NCBI GenBank assembly: GCA_002780895.1
Contig: PEUB01000045.1
Location: forward strand, 1 to 32,610
DNA length: 32,610 nucleotides
Direction of reading: 5' to 3'
Source: Nitrospirae bacterium CG02_land_8_20_14_3_00_41_53
Lineage (GTDB): Bacteria > Nitrospirota > Thermodesulfovibrionia > Thermodesulfovibrionales > SM23-35
A program made the translations under genes and the position numbers. Shown here piece after piece: positions 301-30,777 of this stretch; position 1 is the stretch's first letter, and every line of letters begins with the position of its first letter. The notes beneath the pieces are model-generated. The model saw nothing but the letters and a program-made list of their open reading frames with translations, made no database searches and was not told the DNA's origin.

Positions 301-1113
301 TTATAAAACTTCCTCTAACTTTTTCTTTTGTACATCCTTTTCATTTCTTATCCGTAAATAAAAAACTCCAACCCCGATACATACCATAATGGAACTCAAT
401 AATTGGCCCATTGTAAACGGCCCGAGAATAAAGCCAAGCTGGGGGTCAGGCTCCCTGAAGAATTCAACGAAAAATCTGAAGATACTATATAGGATTAGAA
501 AAAGGGCAGACAGGATGCCAGGATTCATCTGCCTGTCTTTCAGGTTCCAGAGGATTATAAATAACACAACGCCTTCCAGAAGGAACTCATAAATCTGCGA
601 TGTGTGGCGGAGAAGGGGGCCGCCTGAGGGAAAGACCATAGCCCATGGTACATTGGTAATCCTTCCGTAAAGCTCTCCATTAATGAAATTACCGATTCTC
701 CCCAGCCCAAGTCCAATAGGCGCTGTAACAATCAGAAAATCTGACATTTGCCAGAAAGCAAGCTTGTTTTTCCTGCACGCAAGGATTCCTGCCATGATGC
801 TCCCTAATAAGCCTCCATGAAAAGACATCCCTCCTTGCCAGACTGCAAAGATTTCGAGAGGATGTTGCAGGTAGAGGGGAAAATTGTAGAAAATTACATA
901 TCCCAATCTTGCGCCTGCTACAAGGCCAATTATCAGATATGAGTAAAGGGAAAGCACTATGTCCTTGTTCAGGTTCAGTCCTTTTCTTCTTAACTGATAT
1001 GTTACAAGAAAGTATGATGCGACAAATCCTGCAAGGTACATTAATCCATACCACCTTACAGCGAATGGGCCTATTCTAAAAATTTCAGGGCTTATATCAG
1101 GATATGAGATCAC
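301..1113 (-). CDS. lgt: prolipoprotein diacylglyceryl transferase
   Basis: Lgt is an inner-membrane enzyme that transfers diacylglyceryl from phosphatidylglycerol to the lipobox cysteine of prolipoproteins. The 270-residue length is typical. The family signature GRIGNFINGELYGR is present at about residues 138-151, and GGMSFHGGLLG (about 94-104) carries the conserved His (H99). Several hydrophobic segments span the protein, and RFFVEFFREPDPQLG near the C-terminus holds the conserved Arg region. The start is GTG and overlaps the stop of the upstream cytochrome gene (GTGA), with AAAGG about 9 nt upstream, so the two are probably translationally coupled. The pairing with a cytochrome looks positional rather than functional. 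The identification is secure. Confidence 0.97.
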   Translation of the reverse strand: MISYPDISPEIFRIGPFAVRWYGLMYLAGFVASYFLVTYQLRRKGLNLNKDIVLSLYSYLIIGLVAGARLGYVIFYNFPLYLQHPLEIFAVWQGGMSFHGGLLGSIMAGILACRKNKLAFWQMSDFLIVTAPIGLGLGRIGNFINGELYGRITNVPWAMVFPSGGPLLRHTSQIYEFLLEGVVLFIILWNLKDRQMNPGILSALFLILYSIFRFFVEFFREPDPQLGFILGPFTMGQLLSSIMVCIGVGVFYLRIRNEKDVQKKKLEEVL

Positions 1114-3557
1114 TTTTGGATGCCTTTATCCGAGCCAATTCTTATAATTAATGAAATGATAGAGCTTATGGCCATGAATACAAGGCTGAGATCAAATCCC
1201 GTATAAGCCAACCGGGTTACAATGCTCAGTCCCCCGATCTTCAGCAAAACAAACATACCAGATACGCCGCCTACAATTATAAACAACCACAACAATTTTC
1301 TCATTGCGATCTCTATTCCTGAAGTTTTTTCGTCAACCTTTTGAGAAAGCATAATTGCAATCGAGATTAAGAAAACAATCACTGCTATCCAGAAATGGTT
1401 TGCATCAAGGCTGAACCTGCTTAATGTCATGTATTCCAGAAGTCCGGGAGAAAGTGCTGCTATCAGAAAGAAGACAATAACTCCTGCAAGAACAACCCAT
1501 GCGAGCAGTTTCGCTTTCTGAGGTGAAAGGATACCATTTCTTACTGCCAGTTGCAGTAAGATTGCTACAATGGTGAGAATGATGAGAAAACCGGTAAGGA
1601 TATACAGAAACGGCTTTAACAATGCCTCACGAAATGAACCTAATTTTATCCGGAAATTTGAAATACCTAATATCTCATAGTTCGCCATCCAAACGGGCTT
1701 CCCGTCTTTCGCTGAGAATATCTCCTTCAAAACTTTGCCTTCAAAAAACGGAGAGCCTGAACGGTGGCAGTCAGTGCAGCCGCCTGCCCCAAGAGCCGCT
1801 TTTGCAGGCGCTATGTCATGGGAAAACTTATATACGGATGCATAGGCTGTTGCTTCATACTCTTCACGCGGCAGTTCACGGCTTTCCTTCGATGAATAGT
1901 AAGCCTTGCTGTCTAAGACCCAGACCAGACGCTTTCCGTCAAGCGGGAATCCGGTATTGTTAAGATAATTTTTTACTGATGTTAAGAGTGCATCAATCTC
2001 CTCGGGCCTATTTACTTCGATAATACCGTCATTATTGTCATCCTTTATCAGAGATAGTTCAGGATAATTCTTTGTTGGGTCTGACTGATGCTGCATCCAC
2101 ATCTGAAAGAAGTCCTTCATGAATAATTGGTTCAATCCCTTTTTGCCTTCTTCTTCAAAACCTACCCATGAACTGTGGACACGGTTGCCGGGATATATCT
2201 TCTCTTTGTATCTGATCAAGGTAGGCCGTGTGACATCAGTCGGCTGGTCCATTGCCGTGAAAAGATCAAGTTCGCCGTAATGGTTCCAGAAGTTCATCTC
2301 CTGATCGTAAAAAGTCCATATATGTTTGGGAGGTGGAGTGATACGGGGCGCAGGGTTGAAAACATCACTTGCCTGAACCAATGCGCTCTTCACTGCACGG
2401 AAGGGAATGTGGCATGCCTGACAGGATAGCTTTTCCATATGCAGCAGCGGCAGCCAGGCATGGGATGCCTTCGGCGCATTCCGCCATCCCTTGATATGGC
2501 AGTTCTCACATGTTCTCATGGAATTATCAAGATCGTTCCTTACCCAGCCGGAAGGATCGTCACCTTTTCCAAACTGATGCACTTCTTTTCCGCGAACCCG
2601 CTTATCAACAGCCTTGCTCCCTGCGGCGTGGCAATCAACACATCTGAGACCTGCAGCCATGTGAACATCTGTTCGCGCAGAAAATGCAGCTCCGCGCTTC
2701 TTCCAGTCAGGCTTCTTGTGGCACTGAAGGCATGTCTCATTTCGCGGCTCGGGGGCTATGTGAACGATCACCTTGCCTTCTTCATCAAACTTACTCTTAT
2801 CATAAGTTATTTTCACAGGCTTACTGTCTTTAATACTTCCGTCAACATTCCCGAAACTGCTTCCTGCTGTAGCAGCCCATTTGAAATTCAGATTTGCAAG
2901 CTGTTTGTTCCTCTCTTTGAAATTGTATTCAGGCATATGACAGAGAAGGCAGTCGGCCTCGATTACTCCGGTATCGATCCAGCGTGCCTTGAAATAATCG
3001 CCGTCCATACCATTCTCTTCACCGGATTTCATCCCCTGCTTTTTCATATACTCATCGTATCTGTTCCCCTCACGGTCGTACTCAAGAGGACCGCCGCCGG
3101 GATGACAGTTGCCGCAGGTGGCGGTCACAAAATCAAAAGAGGTCATGTCGATCATCCGTGCATTTGCATTCTTCTTGGGAGCAAGCTGCCGGTACAAAGG
3201 AGCGGGAGAACACCACGTCCCGCCATAGTTGCCCGGTGAACTGACCCAGTTATACCGCTGTGTAAACAGTTCAGGGACCTTTTCCCCCTTGCCCTGCTGG
3301 GAATGAAAGCCTTCCGTAATCTTCTTGTAATCATGGCAGCCTTTCGTACCGCAGGTCTGCTTTGGAGAATAGGGCTTGTCTGTATTGATATTGTGCACAG
3401 GGTCGATAATGTTCCCTGCCTCATCTTTCAGATAAAAAGGCGGGCAGACTCCTGATGCTACAGGCTTTTTCTCCGGTTCTTTTTGATTTTCTGCCTGTAG
3501 TATGAAGGCGCCCAGACAAAAGGCGATAACCATCACAAAAACAATTAGTCGCTTCAT
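1110..3557 (-). CDS. membrane-anchored octahaem c-type cytochrome
   Basis: The protein has an N-terminal signal peptide (residues 1 to about 22, ending FILQA). It is followed by a large extracytoplasmic domain with eight haem-binding motifs: one CX4CH (CGTKGCH) and seven CXXCH (CGNCH, CLLCH, CLQCH, CVDCH, CENCH, CQACH, CTDCH). The last ~170 residues form about five transmembrane helices, which lack obvious paired haem-b histidines. This suggests a periplasmic electron-transfer module tethered to the inner membrane. The eight haems and the unusual CX4CH motif recall the octahaem tetrathionate-reductase/HAO-like group, but I cannot assign a substrate. AGGAGG lies 7 nt before the ATG. It is upstream of and overlaps lgt, and a porin gene precedes it. 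A role in respiratory or extracellular electron transfer is inference. Confidence 0.85.
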   Translation of the reverse strand: MKRLIVFVMVIAFCLGAFILQAENQKEPEKKPVASGVCPPFYLKDEAGNIIDPVHNINTDKPYSPKQTCGTKGCHDYKKITEGFHSQQGKGEKVPELFTQRYNWVSSPGNYGGTWCSPAPLYRQLAPKKNANARMIDMTSFDFVTATCGNCHPGGGPLEYDREGNRYDEYMKKQGMKSGEENGMDGDYFKARWIDTGVIEADCLLCHMPEYNFKERNKQLANLNFKWAATAGSSFGNVDGSIKDSKPVKITYDKSKFDEEGKVIVHIAPEPRNETCLQCHKKPDWKKRGAAFSARTDVHMAAGLRCVDCHAAGSKAVDKRVRGKEVHQFGKGDDPSGWVRNDLDNSMRTCENCHIKGWRNAPKASHAWLPLLHMEKLSCQACHIPFRAVKSALVQASDVFNPAPRITPPPKHIWTFYDQEMNFWNHYGELDLFTAMDQPTDVTRPTLIRYKEKIYPGNRVHSSWVGFEEEGKKGLNQLFMKDFFQMWMQHQSDPTKNYPELSLIKDDNNDGIIEVNRPEEIDALLTSVKNYLNNTGFPLDGKRLVWVLDSKAYYSSKESRELPREEYEATAYASVYKFSHDIAPAKAALGAGGCTDCHRSGSPFFEGKVLKEIFSAKDGKPVWMANYEILGISNFRIKLGSFREALLKPFLYILTGFLIILTIVAILLQLAVRNGILSPQKAKLLAWVVLAGVIVFFLIAALSPGLLEYMTLSRFSLDANHFWIAVIVFLISIAIMLSQKVDEKTSGIEIAMRKLLWLFIIVGGVSGMFVLLKIGGLSIVTRLAYTGFDLSLVFMAISSIISLIIRIGSDKGIQK

Positions 3558-3744
3558 CTCAAAACCTCCTGTATATTTATTATTAACAGTCTTTTAAATA
3601 ATGACGACATTGCTTTGTAAAATCCCTCCTAACCTCCCTTTTCCAAAGGGAGGAATAATGCCCCTCTTTGGCAAAGAGGGGAGAGGGGAGATTTTTTCAT
3701 TAACGTCTATTCAATTATGAGACCCTTATTATGGTTCATCTTTC
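3558..3744. repeat. intergenic palindromic repeat (CCTCCCTTT...AAAGGGAGG)
   Basis: The 187-nt gap between porin and cytochrome holds a compound inverted repeat at about 3620-3693. One hairpin is CCTCCCTTTtcCAAAGGGAGG and a second is CCCCTCTTTggCAAAGAGGGG. They are enclosed by outer arms AAATCCCTCC and GGGGaGATTT. A sequence of the same design (AATCCCCC...CCCCCCTTT/AAAGGGGGG) sits inside glmU at 29458-29501, so this is a dispersed repeat family. It could act as a partial transcription barrier between the porin and the cytochrome genes. No ORF is seen in this gap. Confidence 0.75.
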
Positions 3745-5061
3745 TCAGAAGAAAACCGTTGTTTGCAAAAAGTACCATTGTGCTGTTGGGCTTGGACCTG
3801 TATTTTTCACAAACTCACCCGGTATAAAAAAGGAGTAACCACCTAATATTTCCAGGTATTCAGAGATCTTCTTTTTCACGACCAAGTCCACTTCATGACC
3901 GAGCTCCCGTCCCGAAGAACCTGTTTTATCCCTGCGCTGTGCATTGCCCGGGAAATACCATGCATCTTTGGCTTGATCGAGCATGAAATAATGATACTCT
4001 CCACGTAAAGTGATGGTTTCGCCGGGAGTAAGGACAAGGTCCAATCTATGTTCCCTGAGATTCTGAAAGAAGAATAGGTTCATCCATCCATAAAGTACCG
4101 TGTCTGCCCCGCCGAATACCCCGTCGAATGTGCCGTGTTTACCGTCGTTCGGGTCTTTATCTCCCGACCCAATCACATATTGCAGGATGAGATGAGGTTT
4201 CCACTTTGTGTCGAAGGTATATCCAAGCGTAAATACCACTCCGTAAGCATCTATCGTATCCGTAGCCCATTTTCCGAATTCCTTGACTATTGTTGTGTCG
4301 TAGTTCCACTGTCCGCTCTTTCCATCAATCCTGAAACCGGCATAATGCGAAGAGAGATCGCCGTTGGCTTTTTCACCTTTGGTGATTCCCCTGTCATCAT
4401 ATTTCAGGACATAAAACAGATCTAACTGAAACGGAAGATTCTTGATGGTATTGTATGTCGCAAGTGCGGTTACACCGTTAATCTGTTCATTCGGCCAGAT
4501 ATCAGGATCATGAATTATGTAACGGCCAGTGATCAAGTTACTGTCAATGCTGTCGCTTTTGTACAGGACACGGACGGCATCCCACGCGTAGCGGCCGGTG
4601 TTGCCCCAGTCGCCCGGACCGAAAATCCTCCGGTCGCCAAAGGAGATCGCCTGTCTGCCTGCCTTAATGCCAAATTGTTCAACCGGCCAGTATTCAATAT
4701 ACAACTGATTGATATCGAAGGGATCATGGAAAGGGTTGTTGCTCCCTGAAAAGTCTTTGTCAGAAAGACGCGATCCTAAAACCTCTGCGTCCTGTATCTG
4801 GGTATGTATTTTCAAGTTTTTAGTTACCTTCAGATCGATTTCGAATCTCAGCCTTGAAAGGAGAAAGTCGTCCTGAGTGCCGGTACCGTATTTCTTTACG
4901 TTGAACTCGTCATCTATTTCACCGCGCAAACGATACGTCCCTCCGATGCTTATGACATCGTTTTCTATGATATGACTATATTTCGTTTCATCAGCCATAG
5001 TGCCGTATCCCGAAGCCGGACAAAAGAGCAAAGCCATTAAGATAATTACAAATAGTTTCAT
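3745..5061 (-). CDS. outer-membrane beta-barrel porin (alginate-export-like)
   Basis: A 438-residue protein with a signal peptide (MKLFVIILMALLFCPASGYG) and alternating beta-strand sequence throughout. It ends in a terminal aromatic (TTVFF), as is typical of outer-membrane barrels inserted by BAM. The segment GRQAISFGDRRIFGPGDWGN (about 145-165) matches the alginate_exp/AlgE-like porin family as I know it. It starts 6 nt after the ZIP transporter stop, so it probably shares the CDF-ZIP transcript. The substrate is unknown. The context suggests passage of metal ions or anions, or partnership with the downstream periplasmic cytochrome. Both are inference. Confidence 0.82.
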   Translation of the reverse strand: MKLFVIILMALLFCPASGYGTMADETKYSHIIENDVISIGGTYRLRGEIDDEFNVKKYGTGTQDDFLLSRLRFEIDLKVTKNLKIHTQIQDAEVLGSRLSDKDFSGSNNPFHDPFDINQLYIEYWPVEQFGIKAGRQAISFGDRRIFGPGDWGNTGRYAWDAVRVLYKSDSIDSNLITGRYIIHDPDIWPNEQINGVTALATYNTIKNLPFQLDLFYVLKYDDRGITKGEKANGDLSSHYAGFRIDGKSGQWNYDTTIVKEFGKWATDTIDAYGVVFTLGYTFDTKWKPHLILQYVIGSGDKDPNDGKHGTFDGVFGGADTVLYGWMNLFFFQNLREHRLDLVLTPGETITLRGEYHYFMLDQAKDAWYFPGNAQRRDKTGSSGRELGHEVDLVVKKKISEYLEILGGYSFFIPGEFVKNTGPSPTAQWYFLQTTVFF

Positions 5062-12510: not shown

Positions 12511-12804
12511 TCAGCCGCAGCACGAAGACCGCGGCATTCCGCTAATAATAATTCCCCGTTTATCGGAGAAATCTATAGTCGCTTCTAAAAGCAGCTTATT
12601 CGCCTCTTTTTCCAGAAAAACCTTTACACCGTTTTTCTCAAGGGTCGCATCTCCCTTTTCAGCTCCTTCGACTATATCCATAGCCAGAGACGGGCCGCAA
12701 CAGCCGCCACCTGCCGCGAATATCCTTATCCCGTAATCGTTGCCTTTTTTCTCCCCAAGTATCTCTTTGAATCGCTTTACTGCATTGTCGGTCAAAGTAA
12801 GCAT
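12511..12804 (-). CDS. HesB/IscA-like protein (Cys paralogue)
   Basis: A 97-residue HesB/IscA-domain protein (MLTLTDNAVKRFKEILGEK...). It has cysteines at GGGCCGPSL and at the C-terminus SSCCG, the usual place for Fe-S or metal ligands. AAAGGAG precedes the ATG. It sits between an ArsD relic and the intact arsA. It is a close paralogue of the UGA-containing gene at 14494-14778, in which the second Cys of GGCCGP is replaced by UGA. A HesB-like protein between arsD and arsA could be a metalloid- or cluster-binding chaperone; that role is inference. It is a shorter variant than housekeeping IscA and lacks the usual CGCG C-terminus. Confidence 0.9.
   Translation of the reverse strand: MLTLTDNAVKRFKEILGEKKGNDYGIRIFAAGGGCCGPSLAMDIVEGAEKGDATLEKNGVKVFLEKEANKLLLEATIDFSDKRGIIISGMPRSSCCG
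12670..12685 (-). other. residual SECIS-like hairpin in Cys hesB paralogue
   Basis: GGCTAT-GGAT-ATAGTC lies 11 nt after the Cys codon that aligns with the UGA of the paralogue. It differs from the perfect hairpin at 14653-14668 by one stem change (G-C to G-U) and one loop base. This is what would be expected of a Sec-to-Cys converted copy, but coding constraint alone could also preserve it. Confidence 0.4.
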
Positions 12805-14493: not shown

Positions 14494-14778
14494 TTAGCCG
14501 CAGCATGAAGTCTGCTGCATGCCACTAATAATAAATCCCCGGTCATCAGAAAAATTCATGGTTGCTTCTGAAAGCAGCTTATTCGCCTCTTTTTCCAGAA
14601 AAACCTTTACGCCGTTTCTCTCAAGGGTCGCGTCTCCCTTTTGTGCCCCGTCGGCTATGTCCATAGCCAGAGAAGGCCCTCAACCGCCAGCCGTTGTAAA
14701 TATCCTGATGCCATGTGTGTTTTTCCCGTTAAGGAATTCCCTGAATTTCTCTATTGCTTTATCAGTGAATGTTACCAT
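14494..14778 (-). CDS. HesB-like protein with in-frame UGA, probable selenoprotein
   Basis: A 94-codon HesB/IscA-domain ORF starting MVTFTDKAIEKFREF and ending TSCCG-TAA. It is uninterrupted except for one TGA (14680-14682, codon 33) within TAGG-TGA-GPSLAM. In the Cys paralogue the same place reads GGCCGPSLAM, so the UGA aligns with a cysteine. The rest is about as well preserved as the paralogue, with no frameshift, which argues against decay. A hairpin suited to a bacterial SECIS follows (next entry). HesB-like selenoproteins are a described bacterial family. It lies behind arsD, with a G8 run plus TC as spacer/ribosome binding site. Automated callers will miss it or call it a pseudogene, which remains the alternative. 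Confidence 0.8.
14653..14668 (-). promoter_or_regulatory. candidate bacterial SECIS hairpin
   Basis: Eleven nt after the TGA, GGCTAT-GGAC-ATAGCC forms a perfect 6-bp stem with a 4-nt loop beginning GG. The loop starts 17 nt after the UGA. As I recall the bacterial SECIS model, it needs a short apical loop with a G in the first two positions, about 16-37 nt from the UGA; this fits. Confidence 0.65.
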
Positions 14779-28642: not shown

Positions 28643-29263
28643 ATGCATACTTCTATCCGTGCTACTTTCAAGAGACGATTCCTTGCCGGACTCCTGATAT
28701 CAATCCCTGCCATCATCACCTTTCTTGTAATATGGTGGTTTTTCAAGTTCGTTGACGGCCTGCTTGAACCTTTTTACTATAAGATGCTCGGTTATCATGT
28801 ACCTGGCCTTGGATTCATCTCGACAATAGTCCTTATATTTATTGTAGGTATCATCTCGACAAATGTTTTCGGTAGAAGGATTATCGAATCCTTCGAACAT
28901 ATTATTCTCAAGATACCGGTATTGAAAGGGATATACACAGCGGTTAAACAGCTCGTCGACGCTTTTTCACCCGAAAGTAAGGTGTCTTCGTTCAAACATT
29001 TTGTAATTGTTGAGTACCCGAGACCTAGTGTCTATGCATATGGGTTTCTCACAAAGGAATGCGTAATGAAAACAGAGAGGGACGGCATGGAGACTGGCCT
29101 GAAGGCTGTTTATATTCCCACGAACCTTATCTATTTCGGTGAAATAGCACTTTTCCGTGATGAACATATTTTTTTCACCGATATTTCGATAGAGGACGGT
29201 ATTAAGATTATCCTTTCTGGAGGAATTGCAACTCCGGCGAAGATATCAGAGGTAAAGAAATGA
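28643..29263 (+). CDS. DUF502 family membrane protein
   Basis: A 206-residue protein with two N-terminal transmembrane helices (LAGLLISIPAIITFLVIWWF; FISTIVLIFIVGIISTNVFG), then IPVLKGIYTAVKQLVDAF and a soluble beta-rich domain (VEYPRPSVYAYGFLT), the DUF502 pattern. Function is unknown; family members are usually in the envelope. I choose ATG 28643, 1 nt after the yebC stop, over the TTG used in the ORF track. Its stop overlaps the glmU start (ATGA). Confidence 0.92.
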   Translation: MHTSIRATFKRRFLAGLLISIPAIITFLVIWWFFKFVDGLLEPFYYKMLGYHVPGLGFISTIVLIFIVGIISTNVFGRRIIESFEHIILKIPVLKGIYTAVKQLVDAFSPESKVSSFKHFVIVEYPRPSVYAYGFLTKECVMKTERDGMETGLKAVYIPTNLIYFGEIALFRDEHIFFTDISIEDGIKIILSGGIATPAKISEVKK

Positions 29264-30732
29264 AGGTAGCAGGGGTCATCCTCGCAGCAGGCATTGGGAA
29301 AAGGATGAACTCATATTTGCCAAAAGTTCTCCATAAGCTGAGTGGTAGAATGATGCTCCAGCATGTCCTGAACACCCTCTATAAACTTAAACCACAGAAG
29401 GTTGTTGTTGTGGTAGGAAAATATTTTAAAGAAATAAAGGAATCTATAATCCAAACAAATCCCCCCATCCCCCCTTTGCTAAAGGGGGGTAAAGGGGGAT
29501 TACTCAGAACTCAGAACTCAGGACTAATATTTGCGCAGCAGAAAGAGGCAAAAGGTACAGGAGATGCGCTCTTAAGGGCATTGCCCTATCTCAGGGGATT
29601 TAAAGGGACAGTTGTCGTTGTTAATGGAGATACACCCTTGATTACCCGGGAGACTCTTAAGAAATTCCTGAGATTTCACGAGGAAAAAAATGATGTTATT
29701 TCGGTACTATCATTTATGTCACAGGAGACAGGCTCATATGGCAGGATAATGAGGGGCAAAACAGGTTATATAACATCCATCGTTGAGGAAATGGATGCCA
29801 CATATCTTCAGAAGAATATAAGGGAGGTAAACAGCGGGGTATATGCTATTGACTCTGATGCCTTCCACCTTTTGAAAGAGATAAAGCTTAATGAGTCAAA
29901 AGGTGAATATTATCTGACGGATATAATACGTATTGCGAGGAATAAAGGTCTAAAGACAGGTGCTTACTGCATTGGTTCCGAGGCTGAATTTATTGGGGTA
30001 AATACTCGGGAAGAACTTGAGAAGGCCAGACGGTTAATGAAGGACAGGATAATAAGGAGATGGACAGACAGGGGTGTAAGTTTTGTAGATACCACTTTAG
30101 TATTTATATCTTCTGATGTTAAGATAGGAAGAGATACTATAGTCTATCCAAATGTTCATCTCGAAGGTAATACAAAGGTAGGCAGGGGGTGTACTATCTA
30201 TCCGAATGTTCGGATTCAGAACAGTATTATAGGAGATGGCGCCATTATCAGGGACTCGACACTGATTGAGGATTCTGTTGTGAAAAATAGAGCCTCGGTT
30301 GGACCATTTGCTCATATAAGGCCCGGTTCCGAGATTGGTACAGGAGCAAAGATAGGTAATTTTGTGGAGGTTAAAAAATCAGTCATTGGCTCGGGCACAA
30401 AGGCGTCCCACCTCACTTATCTCGGAGATGCAAAGATAGGGAAGGATGTTAACATAGGTGCAGGTACTATAACCTGTAACTATGATGGCTATAAAAAACA
30501 TATTACTACTATCGGAGACAATGTCTTTATAGGAAGCGATTCACAGCTTATTGCCCCTGTGAGGATAGGCAAAGGCGCCTACATTGGCGCAGGATCAACT
30601 ATAACAAAGAATGTTCCTTCAAAAGCCCTTGCATTGAGTAGGATAGAGCAGAGGCATCTTAAAGGCTGGGCACTTAAAAGAAAGTCAAAAGTTAAAAGTT
30701 CAAAGTTGAAAGCTAAAGGAGCAAAGAGCTAA
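29260..30732 (+). CDS. glmU: GlmU bifunctional uridyltransferase/acetyltransferase
   Basis: A 490-residue enzyme making UDP-GlcNAc from GlcN-1-P in two steps. The N-terminal nucleotidyltransferase has VILAAGIGKRMNSYLPKVLH, VNGDTPLI and NSGVYAI. The C-terminal left-handed beta-helix has the hexapeptide repeats GPFAHIRPGSEIGTGAKIG and KASHLTYLGDA (catalytic His) and NIGAGTITCNYDG. It is longer than the usual ~456 for two reasons. Residues 66-87 (NPPIPPLLKGGKGG and following) are encoded by an inserted genomic repeat, and the tail KVKSSKLKAKGAKS comes from a low-complexity A/G-rich repeat. Both keep the frame. It is followed by glmS, the preceding pathway step. Confidence 0.95.
   Translation: MKVAGVILAAGIGKRMNSYLPKVLHKLSGRMMLQHVLNTLYKLKPQKVVVVVGKYFKEIKESIIQTNPPIPPLLKGGKGGLLRTQNSGLIFAQQKEAKGTGDALLRALPYLRGFKGTVVVVNGDTPLITRETLKKFLRFHEEKNDVISVLSFMSQETGSYGRIMRGKTGYITSIVEEMDATYLQKNIREVNSGVYAIDSDAFHLLKEIKLNESKGEYYLTDIIRIARNKGLKTGAYCIGSEAEFIGVNTREELEKARRLMKDRIIRRWTDRGVSFVDTTLVFISSDVKIGRDTIVYPNVHLEGNTKVGRGCTIYPNVRIQNSIIGDGAIIRDSTLIEDSVVKNRASVGPFAHIRPGSEIGTGAKIGNFVEVKKSVIGSGTKASHLTYLGDAKIGKDVNIGAGTITCNYDGYKKHITTIGDNVFIGSDSQLIAPVRIGKGAYIGAGSTITKNVPSKALALSRIEQRHLKGWALKRKSKVKSSKLKAKGAKS
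29458..29520 (+). repeat. palindromic repeat inserted in frame in glmU
   Basis: AATCCCCCcatCCCCCCTTT-gct-AAAGGGGGGtaaaGGGGGATT (29458-29501) is a strong hairpin. It is followed by the short tandem CTCAGAACTCAGAACTCAG (29503-29521). Together they encode about 22 extra residues. The hairpin is of the same family as the intergenic repeat at 3620-3693. Confidence 0.85.
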
Positions 30733-30777
30733 GAGCTAAGAGTAATACTCTCTGCTCTGCGCTATATGCTCTTAGCT
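30682..30777 (+). repeat. low-complexity tail and inverted repeat between glmU and glmS
   Basis: An A/G-rich stretch (aaagtcaaaagttaaaagtt and onward) forms the last glmU codons. After it, AGCTAAGAGC (30727-30736) and GCTCTTAGCT (30768-30777) form a perfect 10-bp inverted repeat, with AGAGTaatACTCT nested inside. It covers the glmU stop and ends 8 nt before the glmS ATG, so it could limit glmS translation. Confidence 0.65.

Follow-up and report, generated by a model that had tools for sequence, protein, structure and literature searches.

The glmU gene of an uncultured Nitrospirota bacterium very probably carries, in a loop of the enzyme's uridyltransferase domain, a copy of an apparently mobile palindromic element that is translated as a disordered peptide and tolerated by the protein. 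The element is present in many copies, lies in frame in many unrelated core enzymes, and is present in some relatives and absent from others, including two species of a single genus. These are coding palindromes in a group unrelated to Rickettsia, with far more copies inside genes, and each in-gene copy probably adds a short, floppy peptide to its host protein (only GlmU has been modelled). The stretch of DNA analysed here, called the window (32,610 nt), is part of contig C143 in the 2.0-Mb genome assembly G000.

The GlmU insert and its host gene

The relevant features, in window coordinates, are the following.

29260-30732, + strand: glmU, the gene that holds the insert; ORF of 490 aa, TIGR01173 match of 536 bits (cut-off 367)
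29450-29525, + strand: segment inserted relative to empty-site GlmU genes, from alignment with relatives; ends accurate to +/- ~10 nt
29458-29501, no strand assigned: 44-nt palindromic core of the dispersed repeat, AATCCCCCCATCCCCCCTTTGCTAAAGGGGGGTAAAGGGGGATT, recognised by its folds and genome-wide matches
29502-29525, + strand: heptamer tandem ACTCAGA x3.4 (TRF), encoding LRTQNS
30681-30717, + strand: second heptamer array, AAAGTTA x5.3 (TRF), forming the GlmU C-terminal tail
30719-30742, + strand: third heptamer array, GAGCTAA x3.4 (TRF), spanning the glmU stop codon

The window GlmU matches GlmU folds in the PDB (TM ~0.84, Foldseek). Read on the gene strand the palindromic core at 29458-29501 is NPPIPPLLKGGKGGL, the peptide encoded by the insert includes NPPIPPLLKGGKGG, and the net gain over relatives is +60 nt (+20 residues), in frame. 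A preliminary description of the window had claimed a palindromic repeat in frame inside GlmU, and this is borne out by the ORF, the palindrome and the genome-wide copies. It located the insert correctly, but the extent it gave, 29455-29520, falls short at both sides, since the insert begins near 29450 and the tandem ends at 29525; likewise its in-frame gain stands, at a net 20 rather than about 22 residues. The strong mRNA hairpin that it expected is also seen, with the core folding at -30.5 kcal/mol as RNA (z -2.5) and at -17.1 as DNA (z -3.4), in both cases more strongly than shuffled sequence. The single Rfam match in the insert region was sub-threshold (RsaJ, 16.8 bits against a gathering score of 100), and we put it down to chance. 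The ACTCAGA array recurs exactly at a second place in the genome, C69:8955-8974. At the other end of the gene, the C-terminal tail and stop codon (30681-30742) lie within heptamer arrays, and similar K-rich tails are found in several relatives.

Among 30 aligned GlmU genes, that of the window included, the loop is short in 26 (G016 and 25 others) and bears the palindrome insert in three (G000, G004 and G009), which belong to three genera of one family and share the near-identical peptide NPPIPPLLKGGKGGLLRTQNS, with KPP for NPP in G009. The remaining gene, in G001 (L035), has an unrelated insert at the same place, derived from ACAAGAT-type heptamers. With 26 of the 30 loops short, an unrelated loop of the same length is not a normal part of GlmU in the clade, which is the finding that would have refuted the preliminary description. 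A filled and empty pair is formed by G004 and its congener G016, whose glmU genes have 87 and 27 nt, respectively, between the same anchors and are 96% identical apart from the insert. We also note that G015, a congener of G001, does not have the heptamer-derived GlmU insert of G001, and that G006 has part of the adjoining heptamer sequence.

Modelling of the loop, which the preliminary description had proposed alongside the alignment and a genome-wide count, gives a predicted disordered segment: in an AlphaFold model built from a 35-row alignment, insert residues 67-86 have pLDDT below 50 and lie between helix 56-66 and strand 89-93, while the remaining N-terminal domain is mostly above 80 and most of the surrounding uridyltransferase domain is near or above 90. 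The model thus shows a disordered loop in an otherwise normal GlmU. Judging from the order of the structural elements, the loop would lie at the strand end opposite the conserved Q94/G99/T100 segment; the distance was not measured. The alignment with the best PDB match, S. pneumoniae GlmU, has a gap at the insert position.

Copies of the palindrome in this and other genomes

A search of the 2.0-Mb genome with the core motif gives 156 forward matches and none for the reversed control, and in the window itself six are found where 0.15 would be expected by chance (both strands and related hairpins counted). The core is mostly about 44 nt long, and some copies keep the flanks of a longer form of ~90-120 nt, which are asymmetric in some of them. 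Of 95 distinct copies (from the ~156 sites, mostly exact matches with others added from a DNA search), 72 are located in frame within long ORFs, a call that required an ORF of at least 200 aa and at least 25 codons on both sides. Coding copies encode NPPxPPxxKGGxGGF or, in other open frames, IPPxPPLxKGGxGD and KSPxPPFxKGGxGGI; because the element is nearly palindromic, either orientation gives the same type of peptide. The hosts named by NCBIfam are TrpB, LarC, CobB, HemH, DapF, PrmC, BioA, PurL, RtcA, MutL, MurD, FtsW, Ddl, CarA, CarB, MnmA, LpxB, AddA, ValS, UvrA, RNase R, HypF and GlmU, with three copies apiece in MurD and HemH. GlmU is one among dozens of proteins that carry the element. 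MurD, Ddl, FtsW, ValS, DapF and GlmU are normally essential.

Coding copies tend to have a frame-compatible length. Among copies with recognisable ends, the only ones counted, a single length class modulo 3 accounts for 46 of 63 coding but 7 of 19 intergenic copies (Fisher p = 0.006). The length differences measured between orthologs at filled and empty or swapped sites are all multiples of 3: KsgA +93, PdxA +87, GlmU +60, TrpB +57, MurD +45, another gene +18 and AroC 0 nt. The L234/L279 pair is left out of this set, there being no measurement between anchors, and two candidates for frame-breaking sites, L080 and L073, were rejected since both are boundaries between two genes. TrpB has the palindrome in G000 and is without it in eight relatives; KsgA and PdxA are filled in G004 and empty in G016.

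Several other genomes of the order resemble G000, with in-frame coding copies making up 37 of 49 in G004, 11 of 12 in G029, 11 of 11 in G070 and 6 of 6 in G050, or 137 of 173 for the five together. Elsewhere, judged by a similar test, the copies are mostly outside long ORFs, in G036 (1 of 11 coding) and G078 (1 of 5), both in the same order, and in family f21 outside it (17 of 58). The pooled contrast, 137/173 against 19/74 (Fisher p = 3e-15), indicates that the coding classification is not simply due to the element's lack of stop codons. The p value is a guide only: the groups were formed after the results had been seen, with G036 and G078 placed by outcome; copies in one genome are not independent; ORF thresholds differed among runs (200, 150 or 180 aa); and some f21 sites may be coding yet fall below threshold near an ORF start. 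Fragmented assemblies are common among the genomes compared, and those closest to the window that have names derive from metagenomes. From the coding density of the window (0.89) a coding share of 0.73-0.89 is predicted, depending on the survival of in-gene insertions; the observed shares of 0.76 (G000) and 0.79 (pooled) lie within this range, and no preference for genes need be assumed there. Within the order, copy numbers vary patchily, from 0 to 174 per genome, and the element is present elsewhere in the phylum too.

Other repeats were noted in passing. Two related G/C-rich hairpins, CTCCCTTTTCCAAAGGGAG and CCCTCTTTGGCAAAGAGGG, lie at 3634-3691 of the window, between ORFs 1110-3557 and 3745-5061, and a 193-nt direct repeat (12513-12705 and 14496-14688, 85% identity) overlaps a 97-aa ORF at 12511-12804. 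In 252 kb made up of the window and own-genome loci L001-L021 and L066-L104, a non-random sample in that the loci were chosen by the palindrome, period 7 is the commonest among tandem arrays (27 of 56, with no other period represented by more than 4 arrays); the heptamer units differ in sequence and 21 of the 27 arrays are inside ORFs.

Movement of the element and alternative readings

We infer that the insert derives from a dispersed palindrome that seems to be mobile, and that this copy, next to a heptamer tandem array, would have landed in frame in the uridyltransferase-domain loop. The element may move in hairpin form, with copying in trans by a single-strand transposase of the Y1 type, or in the course of replication, as possible routes, and selection would then remove insertions that break the frame or disrupt the protein core, leaving copies in loops, where the peptide is presumed to be translated without doing useful work (translation was not measured). 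No transposase could be tied to the element, so that the mechanism of movement remains an inference. At the seven Y1 matches in the genome, scanned for ~1.5 kb on each side where the contig allows, none is flanked by the palindrome with up to 3 mismatches. Y1 number and copy number are correlated (rho 0.38; 123 of 177 genomes), a relationship likely confounded by lineage, and high-copy genomes without Y1 exist. A Y1/RAYT mobiliser was accordingly set aside, given Y1 genes with no adjacent palindrome and so loose a correlation. The Y1 genes at L216 and L217 have short inverted repeats of their own (L216: GGGACACATCCCATTTTA / TAAAATGGGATGTGTCCC), unrelated to the palindrome. For comparison with a MITE, which shares terminal inverted repeats with an autonomous transposon and has target-site duplications, some copies do show longer flanks, but no element ends or clean target-site duplications could be defined, and no parent transposon was found.

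The descent of the GlmU insert is less straightforward. Across G000, G004 and G009 the insert is 95-98% identical, whereas the whole genes are 71-76% identical, third positions of shared glmU codons only 53-60%, and the best other 66-nt window of glmU 87%; neutral vertical descent does not fit these values, and resolution in the GlmU gene tree is too low to tell whether the three insert-bearing genes form one clade. Lateral exchange, selection on the segment and repeated insertion all remain possible. It is conceivable, though we think it somewhat improbable, that loop alleles spread as well, repeat-bearing loops passing from species to species through short-tract recombination or templated replacement, and that glmU received its loop ready-made. 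The near identity of the insert in divergent genes speaks for this, as does the confinement of a large difference between G004 and G016 to the insert of otherwise closely similar glmU genes. So do the loops, in AroC, MurD and one more gene, where a palindrome in one of these congeners is matched by a heptamer array in the other; in AroC the spacing does not differ (118/118 nt). The tracts exchanged would, however, be unusually short, with little identity in the flanks; other inserts, such as that of TrpB, have no partner in the genomes examined; and the origin of the 156 copies would be left unexplained. More doubtful still is the broader proposition that certain enzyme loops are exchangeable sites, where palindromes and heptamer arrays are swapped, sometimes without change of length, and that repeat-bearing loops travel from one genus to another on very short tracts, the loop sequence evolving separately from the rest of its gene.

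The same conservation across three genera could mean that selection retains the peptide or hairpin for some benefit to the host, for example as a pause or decay signal in the mRNA or as a flexible linker, and the mainly genic location of copies in several genomes of the order, unlike other Nitrospirota, might be read in the same way. We consider this unlikely: the host genes have no function in common, close relatives differ in which copies they have, and the same loops in relatives hold unrelated heptamer-derived peptides, BioA, PrmC, DapF and MutL each having one loop with different palindromes or heptamer-derived peptides according to genus.

The strong hairpin in the coding strand also raises the question of whether the element is translated at all, or is skipped by ribosomes or spliced from the RNA. 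Palindromes in Magnusiomyces mitochondria are bypassed by ribosomes. Skipping requires no frame, and bypass (byp) inserts are free in length, yet the coding copies here are frame-compatible, the ORFs stay open over several hundred codons and the measured ortholog differences keep to multiples of 3, which makes an untranslated element very improbable. That the insert is just an ordinary lineage-specific GlmU loop that resembles the repeat by chance, for which its occurrence in three genera might be cited, is refuted by the ~156 genomic copies against none in the control, by its absence from the congener and most relatives, and by the recurrence of the same peptide type in unrelated enzymes.

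Relation to known palindromic elements

An apparently mobile palindrome, probably translated within its host proteins, invites comparison with the Rickettsia palindromic elements (RPEs) and those of Wolbachia, which are dispersed in frame in unrelated ORFs as solvent-exposed peptides, with orthologs carrying different elements (PMC10969869, PMC3767692). Coding palindromes are termed a unique but recurrent Rickettsia feature in the title of Ogata et al. 2002, as cited in PMC10969869. The Nitrospirota element is likewise a many-copy palindrome in frame in unrelated ORFs. Its core is ~44 nt, however, against 100-150 bp for RPEs; its host belongs to Thermodesulfovibrionales (Nitrospirae), not Rickettsiales; and unlike RPEs it has adjacent heptamer arrays. 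In R. conorii 44 RPE integrations were first reported, and nearly half of RPEs are in ORFs (PMC10969869), as compared with ~156 intact copies here and about three quarters of the copies read in genes. The CGTC end tag of R. conorii RPE-4 and RPE-6 (PMC3733652) is not conserved in the positional consensus of our copies, nor is a GTAG end tag found in it.

Intragenic REPs are known from Opitutus terrae, Thauera and others (PMC3733652), and the element resembles these in being a short, high-copy palindrome with some copies in ORFs. REPs are mostly intergenic, whereas several genomes of the order have the element mostly in coding positions; it is more REP-like in f21, G036 and G078, where it is mainly intergenic, and unlike REPs it has no adjacent RAYT. 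The likeness to Rickettsia drawn in the preliminary description holds for the mode of operation, and by analogy the element would behave like both RPEs and intragenic REPs, but no RPE sequences were compared, and neither an end tag nor a transposase nor phylogeny ties it to either family, so that membership has not been shown. PARCELs, tandem domains of 25 residues that occur in ORFs of unassigned function and are in many cases membrane-targeted (PMC2996958), share with it a dispersed, dyad-symmetric DNA that encodes a recurring peptide; the Nitrospirota copies differ in being mostly single and within conserved enzymes. The inverted repeats gained and lost between species in functional coding genes of Nematomorpha mitochondria (PMC6649704) are long and perfect, while the element is one dispersed, imperfect sequence family. 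No mention of the peptide or core sequence was found in open-licence papers, and an earlier mention elsewhere is possible.

Intragenic REPs elsewhere make up smaller shares, and here a coding palindrome family is seen at higher load, in environmental bacteria. Related lineages in which the same core is mostly intergenic provide a natural comparison for asking how mobile DNA becomes protein and what limits that. Annotation is affected too: this peptide, where it recurs in unrelated proteins, is repeat-derived and should not be taken for a domain. Exact matches to the longer core form were also found in five DNA stretches (L223-L227) from three IMG/VR viral contigs.
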